Below, in pieces: positions 1,191-14,855 of a stretch of 26,257 nucleotides of DNA. Each line of letters opens with the position of its first letter. The first letter of the stretch is position 1. The notes under the pieces are model-generated. The model had not been told where the DNA came from. It saw only the letters and a program-made list of their open reading frames with translations, and made no database searches. Source of the stretch: a virus; the IMG/VR virus record IMGVR_UViG_3300009620_000042, positions 1-26,257 of that record. One strand, 5' to 3'. The position numbers and the translations under genes are program-made.

Positions 1191-1467
1191 TTTTTTCCTT
1201 ATTGAGTTTTTTGATATGTTTTCTGGTCACTTCTCCCATTAGCTCACCGCGAGATTTCTTGGGGGTGTACTGATCTTCCAAGAGCAATTCAGCATAGTGG
1301 ATAACTTTTTCCACGTCCTGTTTTCCCCCCTTGATACTGTGCCTGGTGATATACTTGACAATGTTTCCTTCATACCAACCAAGCTTATTCTTAACGATAT
1401 AGTGGCTAGGCTGGATTGCCATTCTTTTATAATGGTCTCCTCCTATCTGTTTTTTATGGGCACTCAT
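1177..1467 (-). CDS. DUF3310 family phage protein
   Basis: Protein of 96 aa with the typical DUF3310 layout: GGDHYK near the start (residues 9-14), then IQPSHYI, then GNIVKYITRH and a helix ending in HYAELLLE. The family is widespread in phages and usually lies among DNA replication or nucleotide genes. It is sometimes annotated as a nucleotide kinase-like protein, but no P-loop is visible here and its biochemical role is not established. The C-terminus is rich in lysine. The start ATG overlaps the helicase stop as ATGA (1464-1467), and the end overlaps the polymerase start by 14 bp, so translation is probably coupled to both neighbours. Confidence 0.85.
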   Translation of the reverse strand: MSAHKKQIGGDHYKRMAIQPSHYIVKNKLGWYEGNIVKYITRHSIKGGKQDVEKVIHYAELLLEDQYTPKKSRGELMGEVTRKHIKKLNKEKNETK

Positions 1468-2969
1468 ATTTTGAATCCCCCATAGTTTTGTGGTTCTATT
1501 ATATGCAGTTGTTCTTTTGCGCGTGTTACCCCCACATAAAAGACTCTGTGCGTATCGTCTGGATTGACTTCCATTTCCTCCCTGTTGGCGCGGGAAAGAT
1601 CCGTGAACAGCATAACGTTATCACACTCTCCACCCTTGGCCATGTGAATGGTGCTTAAGTTAATGAGAGGATCAGAGGATAAAGTCTTGTTAACCTTTTC
1701 CAACGATCGTATGTACTCTATATTTCTATTTCCTATTTTCTCAAACACCACATCCCAAGGCGTGCCGGACGCACACAATCCATGGTGCATCGTTAATTCT
1801 TCAACACCATACATTTTATCTTCACTTAATGTGTTCAAATTCTTATAGCCCCTTTCAACACCAATCTTGGTTGGTAGGTAACTGTATATGTAAGATACCT
1901 CATCATAGGAAAGTTCATCACCCTCGTTCAGTTTTTTCCATGCATCTATGGCTGACAGTATTTCTTTCTTGACTGGAAGCTTATTATTTTTCTTGTATGC
2001 CAATCCCTGTTGTCTTAGGTTTTCCTCAATCTCATTCAACATATATCCGCACGGAGCCAGGACAAGCCATTTTCCTATGCTTAAATCAATGGGATCAGGA
2101 TATGCATGTAATTCAGCTACACCATGTACATTTCTTGGCAGCCATTCCTTATCCCTTCTATTGTCTATTCTTTTTACTATCGAGTCCGCAATTCTGTGAA
2201 CAGCGCGAGGACATCTATAAGAGTGTTTAAGGATGGTTACATTCCCTTCCATATTTATGAAATGTTCAATACTAGCGCCTGCCCACCTAAAGATGGCTTG
2301 GTCATCATCCCCGCTTATGTAAACTCTCTTGGCATTCTTCCATATTTTGGAGCACATTTTCCACTGTAAATTGGTTAGATCCTGTGCTTCATCAATGAAT
2401 ACCACTTCCAACTTTGGGGTAGGTCCCGTCTCGATCCACAGAGAAAGCATGTCAGTGAAATCATGCTTGTTATTACCATGTTTATAATCCTCTAACGCCC
2501 TGTAAGCCATTAATAGCTCATACCAGTTAAAATTAAAATTATGTTTATTATAGAATTCTTCCAGTTCCATGCATTGATTTCTGCATTTATTTATTTCCCT
2601 TAATAGCTTGTTGTCTGTTGTAATTATTCCTGTATCTTCCCAGTCCTGAGTGACAAATTCCAGGTCAACACCAGACTCAGCCGAGAATGATTTGTAATCT
2701 TTTGGGTTCATTATTTCCGTTTTTGCCATTCCTAGTTGCCTTTTTCCAAATGCGTGTAGTGTACAGAAGTAAGGCAAGTCATCATCAGTCAAGCTAAATT
2801 TTTCTTTGGCCCTATCACGTGCTTCATTAGTAGCTTTGGTAGTAAAACTGAAGAATCCAATTTCATTTGAATCAGCAGTCTTCTCCTTTAGCTCCCGGTC
2901 CACTATCCGCAGAAGTTCCTCAGTTTTCCCCGTGCCGGGTGGGCCTAGTATGATGTTAATTTCTGGCAT
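1464..2969 (-). CDS. UvrD/PcrA-like superfamily 1 DNA helicase
   Basis: ATP-driven 3'-5' type helicase, 501 aa, shorter than bacterial UvrD (about 720 aa). Motifs in order: Walker A GPPGTGKT (9-16), the Ia region SFTTKATNEAR (41-51), Walker B IDEAQD (192-197), motif III GDDDQAIFRWAG (220-231), motif IV HSYRCP (249-254), motif V STIHMAKGGECD (439-450) and motif VI VFYVGVTRAKEQL (476-488). All catalytic residues appear present. An upstream TTG would give 16 extra residues, but ATG 2969 starts just before the conserved P-loop strand. A GGAGGAG sits 13 nt upstream, longer than usual spacing. It lies between the HNH and DUF3310 genes, overlapping both by a few bases. It probably supports phage replication or recombination; it could instead act in repair. 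Confidence 0.93.
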   Translation of the reverse strand: MPEINIILGPPGTGKTEELLRIVDRELKEKTADSNEIGFFSFTTKATNEARDRAKEKFSLTDDDLPYFCTLHAFGKRQLGMAKTEIMNPKDYKSFSAESGVDLEFVTQDWEDTGIITTDNKLLREINKCRNQCMELEEFYNKHNFNFNWYELLMAYRALEDYKHGNNKHDFTDMLSLWIETGPTPKLEVVFIDEAQDLTNLQWKMCSKIWKNAKRVYISGDDDQAIFRWAGASIEHFINMEGNVTILKHSYRCPRAVHRIADSIVKRIDNRRDKEWLPRNVHGVAELHAYPDPIDLSIGKWLVLAPCGYMLNEIEENLRQQGLAYKKNNKLPVKKEILSAIDAWKKLNEGDELSYDEVSYIYSYLPTKIGVERGYKNLNTLSEDKMYGVEELTMHHGLCASGTPWDVVFEKIGNRNIEYIRSLEKVNKTLSSDPLINLSTIHMAKGGECDNVMLFTDLSRANREEMEVNPDDTHRVFYVGVTRAKEQLHIIEPQNYGGFKI

Positions 2970-3375
2970 CTCTAATTCTTTTCTCCTCCGTTCTATGACA
3001 ATTGGCGCATAGTACAATGCATTTCATCCATTCTTTTTTCATTTTCTTAAACTGTTGCCAACTTGTTCTCCAAAAAGAAGAGACAGGTCTTTCTTTTTTT
3101 TCTGGATTTATATGGTGATAGTCTAACCTTTCTGGATATTTTTTAAATTTTTTATTGCAGTGAGAACACCCAAGTTTGGTTTTGGATGCATTATACAAAG
3201 CTGTTATTGCATCATAAACTTTTTTCTTATTAGCTTTGTGATATGACCTTTGCCTTTCAAATGCTTCAGGACTTCTAAAATCTGCATACTTCTTTCCTCT
3301 TTTCATAGTGTATCCAACAAATATATATCCATCTTCTCTTTTATCACCGTATTTTAAGTTAGAACGGTATGTCAT
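2956..3375 (-). CDS. HNH endonuclease, probably free-standing (homing type)
   Basis: Small basic protein of 139 aa with a zinc-stabilised HNH nuclease fold in its second half: CSHC (C70, C73), catalytic DYHHINP (85-91) and CANCHR (C123, C126, H127). The N-terminal half (GYIFVGYTMKRGKKYADF) is probably a DNA-recognition part. An upstream TTG is possible, but ATG 3375 has a strong GGGAGGA five bases upstream and is preferred. The gene sits between primase and helicase, with its first codons overlapping the primase end (17 bp) and its last ones the helicase start (14 bp). Its base composition is richer in A+T than the primase (19 G+C in bases 3121-3180 against 28 in 3601-3660, hand-counted). That fits a gene acquired by insertion into the replication operon. 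A packaging-linked HNH role is less likely at this location. Confidence 0.88.
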   Translation of the reverse strand: MTYRSNLKYGDKREDGYIFVGYTMKRGKKYADFRSPEAFERQRSYHKANKKKVYDAITALYNASKTKLGCSHCNKKFKKYPERLDYHHINPEKKERPVSSFWRTSWQQFKKMKKEWMKCIVLCANCHRTEEKRIRDARN

Positions 3376-4903
3376 CTTTTTCCTCCCTATCAAACTCTGA
3401 GTCCTGTTTAGGAAAGGCCGGAATGCCCCATACGTTCACGCCCTTGCCCTTGATCTTGAAGAATTCCGATCTGAATCCTTTTATGTTTTGTATTTCCGCT
3501 ATGATCTGTCCTGTGTTGCTGAAATGGTTGAATTTCTGCCTGATAAGATAGGCGTGGAGGTCCTGAAGCCTGAAATAGGTTATATTGTAGTCCTTCGCTT
3601 CGGAATCGTCCTGTGTCCACGGTCTTCTTATGAGTATTTGTCCTTTGTTTTTTGCCTGCGCCCGATCAGTACAGAACTCCTGGAGGTGAGCCATGAACTG
3701 TCCGGACACAGATCCGTCACTGGAAACTTTGGTAATTTGAGCCTTTTTCATTTTCTCATTTACGAGTTTTTGCCAGTCAGACGTCTTCATCAACGGAGGC
3801 ATAATGGTCAATACGTCCATTGCGCGCCGCTGAAACTTTGTTTGTATCTGTAATTCCTCAGTGCTTAATTGAATCTTGTAGTCATCTTCATCAGGCTTAT
3901 CATTGGGAATTTCAAGGAACCACTGTGGGGGCTTCGTATCCAGCTTGGTCAGTTCCCCCAATGCCTGGGCCAAATCGCTGCCATCTATTCCGTATTTCCT
4001 GAGCTTGCATATGATGGAATTGCAGTAGGAAACTATTGGCTGATCCTTGCACTTATAGTTATAATCTTTCTTGTTGAGTTGTGATACTACAACGGTTACT
4101 TCCTTGTGATCCAATGGTGGTTCCATATATTTCTGATTATATTTTTCCAGTAAATTCTCCCAATTTGTGGGGTCGAACTTTCTCAGGTAAACTCCAATGT
4201 TAAATAGACCGTTGTTGCGTGTTCCTTCCGGAAATCCTTGATCACACAGTGCCTGCAGGCACGGTGGTCCATCCTTGATGGCCTCGTCATCAACACTCAC
4301 TTTTACCTTGTCTATGTCTTCCACGCTGTACTTGTCGTACATCGCATAAAATTCCTTTAACGTTGCTGGCTCCCCATTATTCTTGATGGCAAACCTAACT
4401 GTCTTTCTTGCATGGTAATAGGGAAGATTAAGGAAATTTCCCACGTCCCCCTTTTCCGGCTGAATGCCGGATTGTTTTGGAAATATTTCTGATTTTGATT
4501 GACCTAGTAGCGCCGCAATTGCGGAAAGCTTATTTTTCATGGTCTTGGATGCAATCGTATTTTTCATAAAGAGGAAGATGTGAGCTCCTCCACTCTTTGA
4601 CTTGCAGTGCACTAATGGTAATTTTAATTTTCTGATTTTGATAATAAGACTATGGTGATCAATAGGATAATCATCAATATCAATGCATCCCCACTTAGTA
4701 GTATTATCAGCCCTAATAGGAATAATCCCAAGAGACGGACCCTCACCCTTGAGGTGTTTTTCCCAGAGTTCATCGGTTACCTCCCTTCTGACAACAGAAG
4801 ATTTGCCTTGTTGCTTACCGTCAGCACGTGCCCCATTGGGTTGGTGCTGACCGTAAGCTATATCCAAACCTTCAAATATGAACTTGAATTTCTCAACTTC
4901 CAC
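3359..4903 (-). CDS. Archaeo-eukaryotic-type (AEP) DNA primase, SSB-like C-terminal tip
   Basis: Protein of 514 aa, probably the phage primase. The N-terminal domain has AEP motifs: metal-binding IDIDDYP (74-80; D75, D77) and SGGAHIFLF (104-112; H108), preceded by SLGIIPIR. This resembles primase-polymerase-like AEP domains rather than TOPRIM (DnaG or T7 gp4) primases. The C-terminal half is not recognised and may be a helical or winged-helix domain. The protein ends in EEKDDIPF, an acidic tail like that of bacterial SSB. The start is GTG with GGAGG a few bases upstream. The gene lies 21 bp after the ssDNA-binding candidate and just before the HNH gene. No helicase motifs were seen inside it, so it is not a primase-helicase fusion. 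The primase call is fairly safe; the subfamily is uncertain. Confidence 0.8.
   Translation of the reverse strand: MEVEKFKFIFEGLDIAYGQHQPNGARADGKQQGKSSVVRREVTDELWEKHLKGEGPSLGIIPIRADNTTKWGCIDIDDYPIDHHSLIIKIRKLKLPLVHCKSKSGGAHIFLFMKNTIASKTMKNKLSAIAALLGQSKSEIFPKQSGIQPEKGDVGNFLNLPYYHARKTVRFAIKNNGEPATLKEFYAMYDKYSVEDIDKVKVSVDDEAIKDGPPCLQALCDQGFPEGTRNNGLFNIGVYLRKFDPTNWENLLEKYNQKYMEPPLDHKEVTVVVSQLNKKDYNYKCKDQPIVSYCNSIICKLRKYGIDGSDLAQALGELTKLDTKPPQWFLEIPNDKPDEDDYKIQLSTEELQIQTKFQRRAMDVLTIMPPLMKTSDWQKLVNEKMKKAQITKVSSDGSVSGQFMAHLQEFCTDRAQAKNKGQILIRRPWTQDDSEAKDYNITYFRLQDLHAYLIRQKFNHFSNTGQIIAEIQNIKGFRSEFFKIKGKGVNVWGIPAFPKQDSEFDREEKDDIPF
3381..3387 (-). promoter_or_regulatory. Ribosome binding site that fixes the HNH start
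   Basis: GGGAGGA on the minus strand, five bases before ATG 3375 and inside the end of the primase gene. It favours ATG 3375 over the TTG at 3393, which has no such element at a proper distance. Confidence 0.7.
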
Positions 4904-4924
4904 AAAACCTCCAATAGATATCCC

Positions 4925-5704
4925 TTAAAAAGGAATATCTACGTTGCTTTCAGTTGTCTGCGGTTTTGCGATTGATTTTGGTTCTTCCGGTTTTGCTTCT
5001 ACTGCACCACTTGATGCGGCAGTAGAAAATGCTTTACCTTCACCGTAAACGGAAGCGTCAGTTACCTGATCCCCCTTTTCTACTTGGAAGCCAAACCAGC
5101 TACCTCGATCATTTGATTCACCTACCGTTGTTATTTTGTAGGTAAAGGCATATGTTGGAGGCGTAAACATCCCAGATGGACCCTTAATTTTTTGTGACAG
5201 CATCAGGCTGTTCCAACGTCTGCTTTTCTTAAGCTGACTTGAAGCCATGCTGATCACGGCATTTTGGTATCCACCATTTATTTTAGCCAATACATAATGA
5301 TAAGCTGTTTGAACAATATGGTTGCCGTTGTCAAGTACATATCTTCCGGTCATTGGATCCCTAGCTGCTTTTCCTAGAATGCCACTGTCGGCACTATGGG
5401 AAGCAATAAATCCTCCACCCTGTTCACGAGCTTTCCATTCAACATATCTTAGGTGATAAAAAACGGGAATGACAGTTAATTCAGGAAATGTTTCCTGGGT
5501 AACTGTATTATACAGTTGACCAGCTTTTGCTGTTTCAATGTATTCCGCTTTTGATGGGTTTATTTGAGGGCTTCCGGATTGAAGGATAGTTATGTAGGGG
5601 ATAGCTGTATCCCTTGAAAGATCCAACGCTCCAAAGCCACTTGTGATTTTAGAGTCCGCGGCAATTGTTGCCACGTCGACTGAATTATTAGTTTTTTTAT
5701 TCAT
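4925..5704 (-). CDS. Putative phage single-stranded DNA-binding protein
   Basis: Protein of 259 aa. The main body (about 30-215) is rich in beta-forming and aromatic residues: IPYITILQSGSPQ (35-47), then VIPVFYHLRYVEW and SWFGFQVEKG. It is followed by a low-complexity linker rich in A, E, K and P, and an end in NVDIPF. A compact beta domain, a flexible acidic linker and a hydrophobic tip is the layout of ssDNA-binding proteins such as bacterial SSB and T7 gp2.5, and the neighbours are primase and helicase genes. I do not recognise a specific named family, and OB-fold membership is inference. The start at ATG 5704 has GAGGA about eight bases upstream. Confidence 0.6.
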   Translation of the reverse strand: MNKKTNNSVDVATIAADSKITSGFGALDLSRDTAIPYITILQSGSPQINPSKAEYIETAKAGQLYNTVTQETFPELTVIPVFYHLRYVEWKAREQGGGFIASHSADSGILGKAARDPMTGRYVLDNGNHIVQTAYHYVLAKINGGYQNAVISMASSQLKKSRRWNSLMLSQKIKGPSGMFTPPTYAFTYKITTVGESNDRGSWFGFQVEKGDQVTDASVYGEGKAFSTAASSGAVEAKPEEPKSIAKPQTTESNVDIPF

Positions 5705-5725: not shown

Positions 5726-6274
5726 TTAAGATTTAATAGTTGTTTTTTGTCCTACATACGCCCCTAACAGATCCATCGGTAATTTCTTACCGGATTCATG
5801 TTGTTCACGTACAAAGGCGCGAAGGGTGGAAGGTTCGACCCACTCGCGTTGTGAAGACTCATATCCCTCTTTATTCAAGTGTTCCAAAAGTCCTCTAGCT
5901 TTCTCATCTTCATTCCTCCCAAAGCTACAAGAGACTTGGTTCTTTACTAAATCACCAAATCCGTTGTTCCTTAACCAAGCATAAGCCATTGCCTTTTTTT
6001 CTGGCTTGATGGAAGCGCCATAATAGTCCTTAACGGATATTAACCTTCCATCTGCTAGTTTTAATTCTGATAAACCTACTTCCGCAAAAAGACTAGGAAG
6101 AACTTCTTCCGATAGTTTTTTCTTATAGTCTTCTTTCTTTTTTAATTGTTCCTTTATATCGTTTATTTCTTTATCTGTTTCTGCAACATCCGTTGCAACT
6201 GCACCAATCCTGCCTAAATTATCTTGGGGTACACCCTCGACATCCTTTGCCATTTGATTTACTAAATTATTCAT
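5726..6274 (-). CDS. Unknown phage protein with N-terminal coiled coil
   Basis: Protein of 182 aa that I do not recognise by name. Residues about 30-60 are strongly charged and heptad-like (DKEINDIKEQLKKKEDYKKK), predicting a coiled coil. They are followed by a compact region with LKLADGRLISVKDYYGASI and a C-terminal stretch STLRAFVREQHESGKKLP that looks like an ordered helix. It has no membrane segment or known catalytic motif. The start ATG 6274 lies inside the end of the preceding gene (8-bp overlap) with AAGGAAAA upstream. Its place ahead of the ssDNA-binding and primase genes suggests a replication, recombination or early host-takeover role, but that is only context. Confidence 0.75.
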   Translation of the reverse strand: MNNLVNQMAKDVEGVPQDNLGRIGAVATDVAETDKEINDIKEQLKKKEDYKKKLSEEVLPSLFAEVGLSELKLADGRLISVKDYYGASIKPEKKAMAYAWLRNNGFGDLVKNQVSCSFGRNEDEKARGLLEHLNKEGYESSQREWVEPSTLRAFVREQHESGKKLPMDLLGAYVGQKTTIKS

Positions 6275-6581
6275 GTTTTCCTTTCAAGTCTATTTCTATA
6301 TCATAATATCTTGTTTCGTTGCGGTCCCACTTCAGTACCTTGAAGCGTCCGTTGTTGTGTTCTGCAGCAATTGCTCCTGCAACCGCTATTATAGCAGGAT
6401 CTCCGATTAAAAGCAAGTAGTCATTATCATTAAAATCCCTCAATTCTTTTTGAAGCTTAAATGTTAAAGGACTGGATGATAAAATCATCTGTTTATTGTC
6501 AGGAAGAACAATTTTTAAATCACCAAACTTTTCAGCTGACCTTATATTTCTTCCCATTTCTTGCAAAACGTAAACTGTCAT
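6267..6581 (-). CDS. Unknown small early phage protein
   Basis: Protein of 104 aa, first gene of the leftward replication operon. Features seen: an N-terminal strand MTVYVLQEMGRNI, a FGDLKIVLP segment, an acidic patch DFNDNDYLLLIGDP, an alanine-rich hydrophobic helix (AIIAVAGAIAAEH) and a C-terminal basic strand FKVLKWDRNE. The alanine-rich stretch is too short and amphipathic to call a membrane segment. I recall similar short proteins next to replication genes in marine phages, but cannot assign a function. It sits about 14 bases downstream of the predicted transcription start of the leftward promoter, so its leader would be very short. Confidence 0.75.
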   Translation of the reverse strand: MTVYVLQEMGRNIRSAEKFGDLKIVLPDNKQMILSSSPLTFKLQKELRDFNDNDYLLLIGDPAIIAVAGAIAAEHNNGRFKVLKWDRNETRYYDIEIDLKGKHE

Positions 6582-6644: not shown

Positions 6645-8084
6645 ATGTACAAATTTAAAACAGAGCCATACGAGCATCAAAAGGATGCACTAAAAAAATG
6701 CTGGAACAAGGAGTCATTTGCAGTGTTCGCAGAAATGGGAACAGGCAAGACCAAGATAGCGTTGGACAACGCTTGCATATTATACAACAAGGGAAAGATT
6801 GATCGTGTTCTTGTGATAGCTCCCAAGGGAGCCTACATGACATGGGTGGAACAAGAAATTCCAGCACACGTTCCGGATTATATAGAAAAGAAAGTACTCG
6901 CCTGGAAACAGTCCACGAGCCAGAAATACAAAGCGCAATTGAAGGACATAATGGATATTCAGGATTATAAATTAAAAATTATGGTCATGAACGTGGAAGC
7001 TTTTTCCACGAAAAAAGGGACTGACTTTGCCAGATTATTCCTGATTGGTCGTTCAATGATGATCGTGGATGAAAGCACTACCATAAAAAATCCACAGGCA
7101 AAAAGAACCAAATCAATATTGAAATTGGGAAAGGATACCAAATACAGAAGAATACTGACTGGATCCCCAGTTACCCGGTCGCCCATGGATCTCTGGTCAC
7201 AGATGGATTTCCTGAACCCGGAAATACTGGAGCAATCAAGCTATTATGCATTCAGGACTCGCTATGCAATCATGGTCACGTCAAATGCAGCCGGCGGAAC
7301 GCATACATACCAGCGTATCGTCAAGTTTCAGAACCTAAAGCAACTGGGGGAGCTAGTAGCACCCCATTCATACCGCATATTGAAGAAGGACTGTCTTGAC
7401 TTACCAGATAAGGTATATACCAAACGTGAGATAGAATTAAGTGATGAACAAAAAGAGGCGTATGTGGATATGAAAGCTAACGCTATAGCTACCCTTAAAG
7501 GGCAATCCATGACTGCAGTTAACGTCCTTACCCAACTGATAAGGCTTCACCAGATAACGTGCGGTCATATGAAAACAGATGCCGGCCATACCATAGATCT
7601 TAGAAGCAACAGAATAGATGAACTAATGCAGATTTTGGGTGAGACAACCGGAAAGGTGATTATATGGGCAAATTACATACATGACATTGAAAAGATTGAA
7701 GCTAATATAGCCTTAAGCGATTTCGGAGCAGATTCTCTGTGCACTTATTACGGCGCAACACCAGCCGATAAAAGGCAGGAATGCATCCGAAAGTTCCAGG
7801 ACCCAGATTCAAAGGTAAGATTTTTTATTGGTAACACCCAAACTGGCGGATACGGTATTACCCTTACCGCCGCAAGCACGGTGATCTACTATTCAAACAA
7901 TTATGATCTGGAAAAGAGAATACAGTCAGAGGATCGTGCTCACCGCATAGGGCAGAAGAACAAGGTACTGTACATTGATCTAATGTCAAAAGGGACTGTG
8001 GATGAAAAAATCATACAGTCCCTTCGAAGCAAGGTTAACATCGCCAAAGAAATCAGTGGCGAGGAACTTATTGCTTGGATTTAA
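6645..8084 (+). CDS. SNF2-family DEAD/DEAH-type helicase
   Basis: Protein of 479 aa, a minimal SNF2-type ATPase and the only rightward gene. Motifs in order: HQKDAL (Q-type start, 11-16), Walker A AEMGTGKT (29-36), VLVIAPKGAYMTW (motif Ia region), Walker B VDEST (141-145; DEST instead of DEAH), LTGSPV (171-176), IWANYIHDIEKI (start of second RecA fold), GGYGITLTAAS (motif V) and QSEDRAHRIGQ (427-437, motif VI with arginine finger). It has no extra chromatin, nuclease or zinc-finger domain. Such stand-alone SNF2 proteins occur in many phages and probably translocate on double-stranded DNA to remodel replication or recombination intermediates. AGGA lies directly against the ATG, an unusually short spacing. 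Its end overlaps the Hsp20 gene by 17 bp, tail to tail. Confidence 0.92.
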   Translation: MYKFKTEPYEHQKDALKKCWNKESFAVFAEMGTGKTKIALDNACILYNKGKIDRVLVIAPKGAYMTWVEQEIPAHVPDYIEKKVLAWKQSTSQKYKAQLKDIMDIQDYKLKIMVMNVEAFSTKKGTDFARLFLIGRSMMIVDESTTIKNPQAKRTKSILKLGKDTKYRRILTGSPVTRSPMDLWSQMDFLNPEILEQSSYYAFRTRYAIMVTSNAAGGTHTYQRIVKFQNLKQLGELVAPHSYRILKKDCLDLPDKVYTKREIELSDEQKEAYVDMKANAIATLKGQSMTAVNVLTQLIRLHQITCGHMKTDAGHTIDLRSNRIDELMQILGETTGKVIIWANYIHDIEKIEANIALSDFGADSLCTYYGATPADKRQECIRKFQDPDSKVRFFIGNTQTGGYGITLTAASTVIYYSNNYDLEKRIQSEDRAHRIGQKNKVLYIDLMSKGTVDEKIIQSLRSKVNIAKEISGEELIAWI

Positions 8085-8466
8085 TTTTTATTTGTTTTGG
8101 TTTTTCGGATTCCGGAATTTCCCGTTTATAAGTAACTTTAAGAAGTCCATCCTTTAGCTCCGCTCCATTAATCATAATGTGTTCATGAAGCTGGAATTTT
8201 TTGATAAAACTCCTATCAGAAATTCCTTTATGCCAAAAATCTTCTGAGGTTTTTTCTTCTTTACACCCAGAAACATGTAAAGTTTGCTCTTTTACTTCAA
8301 CTTTCAAATCTTTCTCAGCGAACCCTGCAACAGCAAATTCAATGACGCCTAAGTCATCTTTTTCTTTAATGTTGTATGGGGGATAAGTTGAGACTCTTTT
8401 GAAACCGTCAAAAAAGTCGTTGTGGAAACCAAGAAAATGGTTACGTATAATATCTAGCTCGTTCAT
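8068..8466 (-). CDS. Hsp20 small heat-shock protein (alpha-crystallin domain)
   Basis: Chaperone of 132 aa, the usual size for IbpA-like proteins. It holds an N-terminal arm with FHNDFFDGF, then the alpha-crystallin domain: YPPYNI (28-33), AVAGFAEKDL (45-54), SDRSFIKKFQL (83-93), and LKDGLLKVTYKREIPE (104-119). A C-terminal IKIKS (126-130) is the I-x-I type anchor that lets these proteins form large oligomers. The family binds unfolding proteins without ATP. Phage-borne Hsp20 is known from marine T4-like cyanophages. The start has AGGAGGT at 8471-8477, a strong ribosome site. It is separated from the nuclease gene by about 54 bases, one of the longest gaps in the window, and probably has its own promoter. 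Confidence 0.93.
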   Translation of the reverse strand: MNELDIIRNHFLGFHNDFFDGFKRVSTYPPYNIKEKDDLGVIEFAVAGFAEKDLKVEVKEQTLHVSGCKEEKTSEDFWHKGISDRSFIKKFQLHEHIMINGAELKDGLLKVTYKREIPESEKPKQIKIKSKQ

Positions 8467-11436: not shown

Positions 11437-14400
11437 TATAATACTCCCATTATTCCCTTGTTCTGTGCATTCTGAAAAGGATTGTCATTGATTCCTGTCT
11501 GTATGTCCGTGTACTTTCCCTGATTGTTCATCACGGGGTTCATCTCCATCAGTCCGCCTCCGGCAGCATACTGTGTTCCGCCGCCGTACTGCGCAGCCAA
11601 CGCCGCGTCAGTGTTTCCTGTATACAACGCTCCAGCTGCCGCCGGATTCATTGTCGGATTGCTCATTATTGAAGCGCCAACACGTGATGTGTCATACGCT
11701 CCTCCCGCCGCCTCAGGCGCGTAGTCAACCGCTCCTTCCGGTGCCCCAATTTTTGGACTTAGGAGAGACGGTGTTGGATCTATATCAGCTCCCTTTTTAA
11801 TAGCATCATATCCTGCTCCAAGCGTGTCAAGCGGATTCATGACAGCCTCGCCCACTCTGGCGCCAGTTGTCAGTAAGGCATCCTTGGCTTTTTCATTGAA
11901 TGTTTGTGCCTGCTGGAATCTTTGTCCTGACTGGTCAAACATTTTTTGATCTTCCTCAAGTTCATGCAAATCACGGTCAAACGCAATCCATTCCTCCGGG
12001 TACATACGAACCAGTCTGGCAAAGTTTGCAAGCCTAATTGTCTCCGGCAGGTTTGCATCTACCATGTTTTTAAGTACCCTGTGCGATACTGGATTGGTTA
12101 GAACCTTTCCGCCATAGTTGATCATGAACGCCGCGGCACTCATCATCAACGGTCCAATTCCTATAAGGGTGCCAGCCTCGGCGGCTCCTTTTCCCATCGC
12201 TCCTGGACCCAATGCCGCACCAGGAATAAACGCTCTTACAGCTGACCTAGTGGAACCCATGACTGCACGACGCATCATGAACTTCGCTCCGCTAGGAACG
12301 CCGTTCTCGAAAAGCTTCGCGAGAACCATTGATAGGTCATCAAAGTCCTTCTGGGTTGGCATCTTTGTTCTTTCTCCCCTTATGAATCCTTCCGGCAATT
12401 CCTCGCCGAAGATTTCCTTCAGTCCCTTGCCAACTCCCGTTTCATATACCTGGTCATCAAAATGGGTCCATCCAACTCCAGGCTCCCAAATCCTGAGCTT
12501 TGTTACTTCCGGTGACTCATCAAGCGCGTGACTGAACAGTGATTTTAACTTGGATCCTTCCTTTCCAAGTCCAAGTCCGGCCCTGAATCCTGCCGCGTCA
12601 AAATATTGCAGTCCTTCCTTTTCAACAATGGATGCATTGAACAGGTCATCAACGTATGTTCCTAATCCGTTGTGGTATCCACGGTCGCCCACAATTCTTC
12701 TGATTGCAGCCAGTTCCGCCTTTCCGTCTATGGCATGTGCCTTTGATGCATTAATAATGGTATCAAATAGAGTATGAGAAGCACGTGTTGTACTGTTGTC
12801 AAGAATAATGTTGAATCCCCTTTGCTTTACTTCCCCTCTCGCCGCTGTCTTGCCAACATTCGTTCCCCAAAGCATCAGCCCTGAAGAGACAAACTTGTCA
12901 TACTCATCAAACGCCTTGGCAATATCCGGGTATCCCATTTTTTCAAGGGATGCTACATCATTCTCCCACGCCTTCATAAGGCGTGAAATGTCATCCGCAT
13001 AGGTGGTCTTCGCCAGTACCTTGTCCTTGAGTGGAGCCAGCAAGTCATTGATCTGCTCGCGAAGCCCTTTCATTTGATGCACGTCTAGCATTGCGTGCGC
13101 CCTTCCTTCGCCAACAGGTTTTATTATTTGTTTTTCCAGGAAGTCGATCAGCTTGTTTCTTACTTCCGATGGGATTATTTCTCCTCCAGGGTCAAGCTGA
13201 AGCTTCTCCCTGTATTCCCTTAGCGTCTGTTTTGCAACGTTGACCAGATTCTCATTGGAGAATCCCTTGCCCATGCCTTCCGCCGCCTCAGTGAATCCCT
13301 TCTCCAGTGTCTTTGCCTGTGCTATGAATCCCTTTAAGTTCTGTGATGCTAGGAAGTCCCAGCTCTCCAGCATCTCGTCAAGGTGTCCGTATGGTGCAAA
13401 TCCACCAATCATTTTTCTCATGACTCCATCAATGTAGAAGTCACTCTGTTTTGCCATGTTGTTCTTTATGCTGATTCCGAACAGCGGTGCTGGGGATAGC
13501 ATTGAGGTTATCTTTCCACCCAAAGTTCCACCAACCATTTGCCTTCCAACCATTGTTCCGGCAATCTCAGTTGGATCAGGCCACCATTCATTGGACCCTT
13601 TCTTGATAGGTCCTGGTGGGCCAAGCCAGTTGAGTGCCTTTGAATTGGTAGCACGCCATAGGAAATTTCCAAGTCCCAGTGGTAGGTTGAATGAAAGCTG
13701 TTCCTTTGGTACCTTCAATCCTCTTGTTGCAATCAAGTCCAGTTCATTCTGCGATGGCATCCATCGCTCAAGAACCCTTTGCTCCCCTTCCAGCAGTTCC
13801 TTTCCGCTGACAATTCCTGGCGCCTTGCTGGGCTTTTGCCTAAACATCCTGAATGGAGTGTGTCCAACTACTTTTCTTATTCCGTAATATGCCGGCCTTA
13901 ACGCGAAGAATCCAGCTGTCAGTCCCGCATCCCAGTAGGCGGCGTTGAGAGCGTTGCCTAATCTTTTCTTTTGTGTTGGCCTGTTGATTCCCTGAGGACC
14001 AAACGTCCATGATTCAGGAACAAGCGTTGCCAGTGTGGCATCAACCAAACTCGCCTGCTTGTTTGGATCACGCATGTATCCTTTCGCCTTTCCTGCCTTG
14101 TTCATCATATCCAGCATGCCCTCGTAGCCATAGTCCGCCACGCCGACGGCCATTGCGCCACCTATGACGGCGCCAGCTGTCCTTGCAAGCCAGTTTCCTT
14201 TTGACTTTCCAAATCCCTTTGCAGCTCCTTTAAAAAATTTATCCCTTACTAATTTTTCACCCTTGACTGATCCGTATATTCCACCACCTATGTATCCCGT
14301 CATTTCAATTGCAGGATATGGGTTAGGATTATTGGTGAACAGTCCTATATTATCACGCATGTCCAGTACTTCAGGGGACACAACGGTAAAGTCAGTCTTA

Positions 14401-14855
14401 GGATTCAATCCCTCGTTGGCCATAATTTCATTTATTCCCTGTACAGCCAGATCAAGCTTCGATTGATCTCCGGTTTCCGTAAATCTTCTCTTCGCGGTAT
14501 CCGCTATCAAGAGTGCTTGGTCACGCACACGGTCCCTCTTCTCACGGTACAGTCTAGACTCTTGCAGCTCCGCTTTTCTTTGCGCCACGTCCGCCTTGCT
14601 TTGCAGTATCCAGTTGTCCTTTCCGTATCGCCATCCAGTCTTTCCGAAAGGAATATTCCATGCGGTTCCTAAGGCCGCCATTGGTACATCAGTAAGCTTC
14701 TTCTGGAATTCCCTTCCTTTCATTATCTTTTCTTTCGCTTCAGTCTGTGGAACTCCGCCTTCAGTGGTCTCACCCTTGTATTTCTTGTACGCATTCTTGT
14801 GGTCAAGGAAAGGCTTAACTGTTGATTGAAATTTTTGTATTGATGACTGTGCCAT
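11436..14855 (-). CDS. Very large unknown protein (1139 aa), probably internal virion or DNA-ejection protein
   Basis: The longest gene in the window, not recognised. Mainly helical and charged, with scattered glycine/alanine-rich hydrophobic patches such as AGAVIGGAMAVGVADYGYEG (about residue 230) and a stretch near the C-terminal third (AAEAGTLIGIGPLMMSAAAF). The last 100 residues are low-complexity (G, A, N, P) and end in QNAQNKGIMGVL. I found no convincing lysozyme, transglycosylase or ATPase motif. Size, composition and position between virion genes resemble large internal virion proteins of podoviruses, which are ejected with the DNA; that role is inference. Both ends are TAATG overlaps. 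Confidence 0.8.
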   Translation of the reverse strand: MAQSSIQKFQSTVKPFLDHKNAYKKYKGETTEGGVPQTEAKEKIMKGREFQKKLTDVPMAALGTAWNIPFGKTGWRYGKDNWILQSKADVAQRKAELQESRLYREKRDRVRDQALLIADTAKRRFTETGDQSKLDLAVQGINEIMANEGLNPKTDFTVVSPEVLDMRDNIGLFTNNPNPYPAIEMTGYIGGGIYGSVKGEKLVRDKFFKGAAKGFGKSKGNWLARTAGAVIGGAMAVGVADYGYEGMLDMMNKAGKAKGYMRDPNKQASLVDATLATLVPESWTFGPQGINRPTQKKRLGNALNAAYWDAGLTAGFFALRPAYYGIRKVVGHTPFRMFRQKPSKAPGIVSGKELLEGEQRVLERWMPSQNELDLIATRGLKVPKEQLSFNLPLGLGNFLWRATNSKALNWLGPPGPIKKGSNEWWPDPTEIAGTMVGRQMVGGTLGGKITSMLSPAPLFGISIKNNMAKQSDFYIDGVMRKMIGGFAPYGHLDEMLESWDFLASQNLKGFIAQAKTLEKGFTEAAEGMGKGFSNENLVNVAKQTLREYREKLQLDPGGEIIPSEVRNKLIDFLEKQIIKPVGEGRAHAMLDVHQMKGLREQINDLLAPLKDKVLAKTTYADDISRLMKAWENDVASLEKMGYPDIAKAFDEYDKFVSSGLMLWGTNVGKTAARGEVKQRGFNIILDNSTTRASHTLFDTIINASKAHAIDGKAELAAIRRIVGDRGYHNGLGTYVDDLFNASIVEKEGLQYFDAAGFRAGLGLGKEGSKLKSLFSHALDESPEVTKLRIWEPGVGWTHFDDQVYETGVGKGLKEIFGEELPEGFIRGERTKMPTQKDFDDLSMVLAKLFENGVPSGAKFMMRRAVMGSTRSAVRAFIPGAALGPGAMGKGAAEAGTLIGIGPLMMSAAAFMINYGGKVLTNPVSHRVLKNMVDANLPETIRLANFARLVRMYPEEWIAFDRDLHELEEDQKMFDQSGQRFQQAQTFNEKAKDALLTTGARVGEAVMNPLDTLGAGYDAIKKGADIDPTPSLLSPKIGAPEGAVDYAPEAAGGAYDTSRVGASIMSNPTMNPAAAGALYTGNTDAALAAQYGGGTQYAAGGGLMEMNPVMNNQGKYTDIQTGINDNPFQNAQNKGIMGVL

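Follow-up and report, generated by a model that had tools for sequence, protein, structure and literature searches.

We analyzed a virus record of 26,257 bases (IMG/VR record IMGVR_UViG_3300009620_000042, positions 1 to 26,257; hereafter the window) that carries a replication module, focusing on two adjacent minus-strand genes whose products end in similar short peptides. The first open reading frame (ORF), at 3359-4903, encodes a primase of the archaeo-eukaryotic (AEP), prim-pol type with 514 amino acids (aa). After residue ~500, it continues as a disordered linker and terminates as FDREEKDDIPF directly before the stop codon, with the codons of the DDIPF tip and the stop at 3359-3376. The second, at 4925-5704, encodes gp34, a predicted OB-fold (oligonucleotide/oligosaccharide-binding) protein of 259 aa that would bind single-stranded DNA (ssDNA); its disordered linker ends TTESNVDIPF-stop, and the codons of the VDIPF tip and the stop occupy 4925-4942. 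A first-pass annotation had pointed out the tails EEKDDIPF in the primase and NVDIPF in gp34, and both are encoded exactly as described. The tips of both proteins are conserved or co-vary among relatives.

The primase was assigned from Pfam, PHROGs, and a structure model. It matched the Pfam families AEP-TOTE (47.9 bits; cut-off 27) and PriCT_1 (21.6 bits; cut-off 21.1) as well as phrog_21866, a primase family (E = 1.7e-90). A profile match (E = 4e-14) was also obtained to structures 7nqd and 7nqf, which are presumably prim-pol structures, the listing naming only a TPR_REGION protein. AEP catalytic centers use an acidic pair and a histidine in motifs of the DxD and SxH type, and residues D75, D77, S104, and H108 were invariant across 76 relatives. 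These matches indicate that the product is an AEP primase with AEP-TOTE and PriCT-1 domains, and primer synthesis is predicted. The model had a pLDDT (predicted local distance difference test) of 90, dropping to 46-48 over the last 14 residues.

gp34 belongs to the Pam3_Gp34/phrog_2402 family, whose function is unknown in the Pfam and PHROGs libraries. Pam3_Gp34 was its sole Pfam match (E = 2.7e-59), a sequence comparison with PDB chains gave none, and among named NCBIfam families, the gp34 family had nothing beyond a weak ZapD match in one of 61 members. The Pfam family SSB (ssDNA-binding protein; PF00436) had no match anywhere in the window. The gp34 model (pLDDT 88.7) shows a beta-rich fold with a low-pLDDT C-terminal end, and in the models both tails are disordered. 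By VIA-align, the nearest SSB structures were the gp32 cores of T4 (Z = 6.6) and RB69 (Z = 6.5), over 156-159 residues, and many OB-fold ssDNA binders scored 3-4.4. The top row was the recombination directionality factor of phiC31 in 9teh (Z = 8.4 over 156 aligned residues), a hint that its fold is shared with phage SSB-like proteins. SSBs of the T7 gp2.5 type were absent among the best 50 rows listed, which does not exclude a likeness. Foldseek gave no match in the PDB at E <= 0.001 (best E = 0.018), and matches in BFVD were mostly unnamed, with three among the 50 listed called single-stranded DNA-binding protein. From its modeled fold, gp34 is a probable SSB. In one relative, L039 (MW202510), the gp34 gene lies at 13686-14594 on the plus strand, where the record annotates a minus-strand ORF instead.

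To follow the tips across relatives, we gathered loci from IMG/VR and annotated phage records. The best 80 loci per query were taken, and lineage sampling is therefore not random. Dropping loci in which the two genes were not both complete to the stop codon reduced 354 loci to 300 gene pairs, which formed 89 clusters at 80% primase identity, each with one representative. One primase, L062, ends EVVTVQKQ and is perhaps frameshifted; it falls inside the L063 cluster without representing it and was counted among the pairs. Among the representatives, an exact Pro-Phe (PF) end was present in gp34 in 56/89, in the primase in 47/89, and in both proteins in 38/89, so that the tail is kept in homologues of both genes, the check that the first-pass annotation had proposed. 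The last residue was F in 66 gp34 and 53 primase sequences, the next-to-last was P in 60 and 51, respectively, and 59 primases had a free F or Y end. Column entropy was 1.5-2.3 bits at the tip versus 3.3-3.9 bits further in, and the mildly acidic linker residues just inside the tip varied almost freely. The tips are thus conserved independently of the unconserved linkers.

The PF tip is more than chance and is particular to the primase and gp34 families. It terminated 220 of 365 distinct 12-residue tails in these two families. Among 1300 distinct tails from the remaining non-overlapping ORFs (at least 120 aa) of the same loci, it occurred once, in a Klebsiella phage VLCpiS6a protein annotated as a bacterial-type SSB. 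Across 131 loci, no PF end was found in the neighboring UvrD (65 distinct tails), gp33 (53), SNF2 helicase (52), PolA (39), gp32 (38), exonuclease (30), DUF3310 (17), or HNH (8) proteins. In the window, an HNH endonuclease ORF (2956-3393) starts within the last primase codons, so that the DIPF codons are also read, in another frame, as its N-terminus. We rejected this overlap as an explanation of the tail because no more than 13 of the 131 loci contained HNH relatives and the tail is present without them.

PF/PF is the commonest pairing of primase and gp34 tips, and where a tip departs from PF, the departure is usually found in both proteins of the same genome. Matched EF tips (primase/gp34) occur in Providencia phage Kokobel2 (KAEF/HSEF) and Acinetobacter phage Bhz20 (KSEF/GGEF), and matched IV tips in Pelagibacter phage HTVC027P (KENIV/KQDIV). 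NY is shared in loci L337 (KENY/TGNY) and L286 (KPNY/SGNY), the latter nested in a PF group of the tree, and a terminal Y, including PY/PY, in L326 (EAPY/KQPY) and L215 (KLEY/STEY). Other joint departures include EI/EM, EPEL/DSEM in L212, and PPFV/IPFA in MW202510. Joint loss is seen in the L240 group, where neither protein has a hydrophobic free tip except for the primase end SPWL of L333. In this clade (L240, L260, L275, L333, L345, L377, and L381), gp34 has no tail beyond its core, and most primases end PAFK, PFKS, PFA, or similar, with the motif no longer C-terminal.

We sorted the last residues into four classes (F or W, Y, aliphatic, and other). Primases of the first class were paired with gp34 of these classes, in the same order, in 51, 1, 1, and 0 clusters; Y primases in 0, 6, 0, and 0; aliphatic primases in 1, 0, 7, and 2; and the remaining primases in 15, 1, 0, and 4. 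The mutual information was 0.47, whereas the null distribution averaged 0.12 (p = 2e-4), and none of 5000 re-evolutions of one trait on the primase tree reached the observed value. A second set was drawn from bacterial and archaeal assemblies, in which 69 loci gave 38 pairs, 33 after removal of near-duplicates, and 28 after removal of those at least 80% identical to the first set. The two tips fell in the same class in 23 of these 28 pairs versus a permutation mean of 12.4 (p = 5e-5), a comparison that does not model phylogeny and was made with the pattern already known. One such pair, on a Pelagibacteraceae contig, has KTDII in the primase and QKSII in gp34. The two tips co-vary beyond phylogeny, and the matched changes suggest that both fit one shared socket. 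The proposal of the first-pass annotation that the primase and gp34 dock with the same partner is thus probable, given the co-variation in both sets.

Several observations weigh against this reading. A two-state version of the simulated test was weaker (p = 0.02), and an independent-pairs test had five usable pairs, about three changing the same way and none the opposite way (p ~0.25), too few to decide. Classes were mismatched in L040 (ENF/TPY), L043 (SEF/EDM), and L224 (EWE/ALY), and in the second set in L363 (KEVY/ATPF), L378, L387 (DMM/EEF), L395 (KDAF/DVPY), and L404. The first-pass annotation held that homologous primases lacking the tail would show that it is not maintained. The tail is kept in most lineages, but in 15 of the 89 clusters (12 HTVC023P-like and 3 Nanhaivirus-like), gp34 ends in F while the primase has no hydrophobic tip, and the primase tail is therefore dispensable in some lineages. 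Because gp34 keeps its F in these cases, its tip looks primary, with the primase tip an addition open to loss.

We place a probability of roughly 0.55 on a reading in which the primase and gp34 cores are unrelated, each is followed by a flexible linker with a short docking peptide at its end, and the two peptides bind one phage-encoded receptor, most probably the family-A DNA polymerase of the same module, as suggested by column association and by analogy with T7. The receptor is probably phage-encoded because two Pelagibacter phages, HTVC023P and HTVC027P, both recorded on strain HTCC1062, differ in their gp34 tips (SVPF versus QDIV). The first-pass annotation had also raised mimicry of the host SSB by the primase. 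In a version that covers both proteins, both tails would enter the SSB-Ct pocket of host enzymes (RecO, RecQ, PriA, ExoI, etc.), recruiting or blocking host repair and restart proteins. This would fit the resemblance of the commonest tips, DIPF, DVPF, and DDIPF, to the bacterial SSB tip, which excerpts of PMC5872125 give as a highly conserved DDDIPF. A common receptor of host origin is nevertheless unlikely, because phage VLCpiS6a has its own SSB ending DDDIPF together with a primase ending RSEF and a gp34 ending SEDM. The difference between the two HTCC1062 phages and the EF, EEF, or EM tips of gammaproteobacterial phages likewise speak against mimicry, and co-variation of two phage proteins is not expected for an invariant host pocket.

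Some larger AEP primases bear on the same question. In alphaproteobacterial assemblies, the primases of L400, L402, L407, L419, and L421 (721-911 aa) end DEDIPF, DEDIPF, DEDLPF, NDEIPF, and DDDVPF, respectively, and no gp34 was found within 6 kb of such genes, a point in favor of mimicry. Their domains are AEP-TOTE and/or PriCT_1 with DUF5906 or a weak DUF927 match. For these longer primases, mimicry of the host SSB may apply.

The candidates for a phage-encoded receptor lie in the replication module. In the order of minus-strand transcription, it comprises a gp32-like gene (6267-6581; profile match to Pam3_gp32), a gp33-like gene (5726-6274; profile match to DUF7307), gp34, the AEP primase, the HNH ORF, a UvrD-like superfamily 1 (SF1) helicase (1464-3017; Pfam UvrD-helicase, E = 1e-31), a DUF3310 gene, and the start of a family-A DNA polymerase (PolA), whose open ORF (3-1190) covers the N-terminal part and is truncated by the window edge. 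An SNF2-type helicase (6645-8084; Pfam SNF2-rel_dom, E = 1.2e-25) lies upstream in divergent orientation on the plus strand. The gp32-like and gp33-like genes recur in relatives' loci. The gene set was found again in nearly all relatives examined, and presence or absence of its members is therefore uninformative as a pointer to the receptor. A gene for an Hsp20-type small heat shock protein adjoins the module at 8068-8466 (Pfam HSP20, E = 5.7e-17).

We then counted, for each module protein, the alignment columns whose association with the gp34 tip type (F versus any other end) exceeds that due to phylogeny at p < 0.001, using five trees including that of PolA itself. PolA had 10 such columns of 305 on the main tree and 6-10 of 305-313 over the five trees; UvrD had 1-3 of 156-169, the gp34 and primase cores 0-2, gp33 0-1, and SNF2 none. 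PolA was found in 11 of 11 tested records with an AEP primase and gp34, and also in phage Simon, whose gp34 tip is KAPF. Two of the tail-associated columns (R501 and K507 of phage DSL-LC04) lie in a stretch that MAFFT aligned to WIKGLDGRK of T7 gp5, a stretch that the hidden Markov model alignment does not cover. In gp5, it adjoins the basic run KWKRR (587-591), which we take to be the front basic patch; this is a lead only.

The choice of the polymerase also meets counterevidence. The PolA columns are not mutually independent, and all such associations are correlations between linked genes. No PolA match was obtained in four PB1-like phages, although their gp34 tips are EEF, DNF, EQF, and EGF; these phages have annotated Pol III alpha genes, and their tips lack the proline. 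Tail-state changes numbered 8 on the PolA tree, 8 on the gp34 tree, 9 on the primase tree, and 9 on the UvrD tree. We discarded these counts as a pointer to the receptor, as they do not single out PolA.

We infer the following arrangement. Both tail peptides would fit one pocket on one phage-encoded replisome protein, and this pocket would most probably lie on the family-A polymerase of the module. As in T7, the tails would hold the polymerase at the ssDNA-binding protein and let the primase take it over at a new primer, with the two tails competing for one site.

A different receptor would be gp34 itself, its tail folding back on its own OB groove and the copy on the primase reaching gp34-coated DNA. 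The tail of T7 gp2.5 has reportedly been proposed to fold back in this manner. Such a receptor would account for exactly two co-varying tails without a third tailed protein, and excerpts of PMC5686142 describe crystals in which the C-termini of Enc34 and T7-type SSBs sit in the groove of neighboring molecules. We consider it improbable, since none of 110 gp34 core columns on the main tree (p < 0.001) and 0-2 of 119 on the other trees were tied to the tip type, and the gp34 tip is kept where the primase tip has been lost.

The UvrD-like helicase encoded beside the primase is the second receptor candidate in the module. The acidic C-terminal domain of T4 gp32 docks Dda, and a comparable contact is conceivable for this helicase, a neighboring gene present in nearly all loci. 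Among its few tail-associated columns is one aromatic position, replaced by A or C in the clade that has lost both tails. However, its column signal is weaker than that of PolA, and the aromatic position also varies where the tails are kept (V in L215) and persists where the primase tip is lost (the HTVC023P group), leaving this candidate doubtful. The tips might also have no shared receptor and be SSB-like or acidic tails left over independently by descent. This would suit the predominance of PF/PF genomes and the underpowered independent-pairs test, but it is very improbable given that the last two residues have been retained on diverging linkers and that matched switches occur in several lineages (EF, NY, PY, IV, EI/EM, and loss) and again in the second set.

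If the shared pocket on the phage polymerase is accepted, a more speculative extension can be offered. One polymerase pocket might read a tip of 2-4 residues on both the SSB and the primase as a "tail code", and lineages might switch the code (PF, EF, NY, PY, IV, or EI/EM) on all partners together, keeping the replisomes of co-infecting phages apart; T7 would then be a separate, convergent instance. We put this forward tentatively.

These results assign a likely SSB function and a putative docking mechanism to a phage family listed without function in Pfam and PHROGs, and 501 phage records match the gp34 of the window. Matched tips may offer a sequence-only route to predicting which replisome parts belong together, and the matched switches provide natural variants for work on pocket specificity. 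Should the polymerase prove to be the receptor, a large phage group whose primase is quite unlike that of T7 would share the T7 way of tethering the polymerase.

The module can be compared with several known systems. It shares the core family of its primase with CRISPR-associated prim-pols and TOTE AEP primases and differs from them in its phage replication context and its C-terminal docking tip. Among solved SSB folds, the T4-type gp32 cores come closest to the gp34 model, as judged from structure models in the absence of any PDB sequence match. Like the bacterial SSB-Ct, the tails have acidic residues followed by hydrophobic-Pro-Phe at a free C-terminus after a disordered linker. In contrast to the bacterial system, the gp34 core is not of the SSB family, two proteins are tipped, one of them a primase, and the tip varies (EF, NY, PY, and IV), whereas host SSB tips are described as conserved.

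The closest parallel is T7, from which the shared-tail arrangement is already known. The version with an AEP primase, a PF-type tip, and matched switching was not found described: in a literature search that left most subscription journals outside, we found no account of a phage AEP primase having a tail in common with its SSB, nor any mention of PF23977, phrog_2402, or DUF7307. T7 gp2.5 and gp4 both end DF in the record. Across eight T7-type phages in which both C-termini were read, a set that includes T7 but not JSF18, gp2.5 ended DF in all eight and gp4 ended DF, DY, DY, DF, DF, DF, EF, and IPF, so that the SSB and the priming protein of one genome carried a terminal F or Y on both in 8/8 pairs, as acidic tails with a terminal aromatic residue. 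The statement of the first-pass annotation that a primase with such a tail is unusual accordingly needs qualifying. The IPF case is Aeromonas phage phiA014S (L432), whose T7-type primase-helicase has an SSB-like DDIPF end and whose gp2.5 ends PDF. According to excerpts of PMC12593628, PMC8835902, PMC8472574, and PMC5686142, acidic gp4 tails contact basic patches on the family-A polymerase gp5, and gp2.5 interacts with gp4 and gp5. A phage family-A polymerase is likewise encoded here, the partial PolA at the window edge. In T7, both proteins interact with the polymerase (excerpts of PMC12593628, PMC8835902, and PMC8472574), whereas here polymerase binding is suggested indirectly by the column association. 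The systems also differ in their parts, the present one having an AEP prim-pol without a fused helicase and an unrelated OB protein as its probable SSB, and its tip is usually Pro-Phe, with an identity that switches in step in both proteins across lineages.

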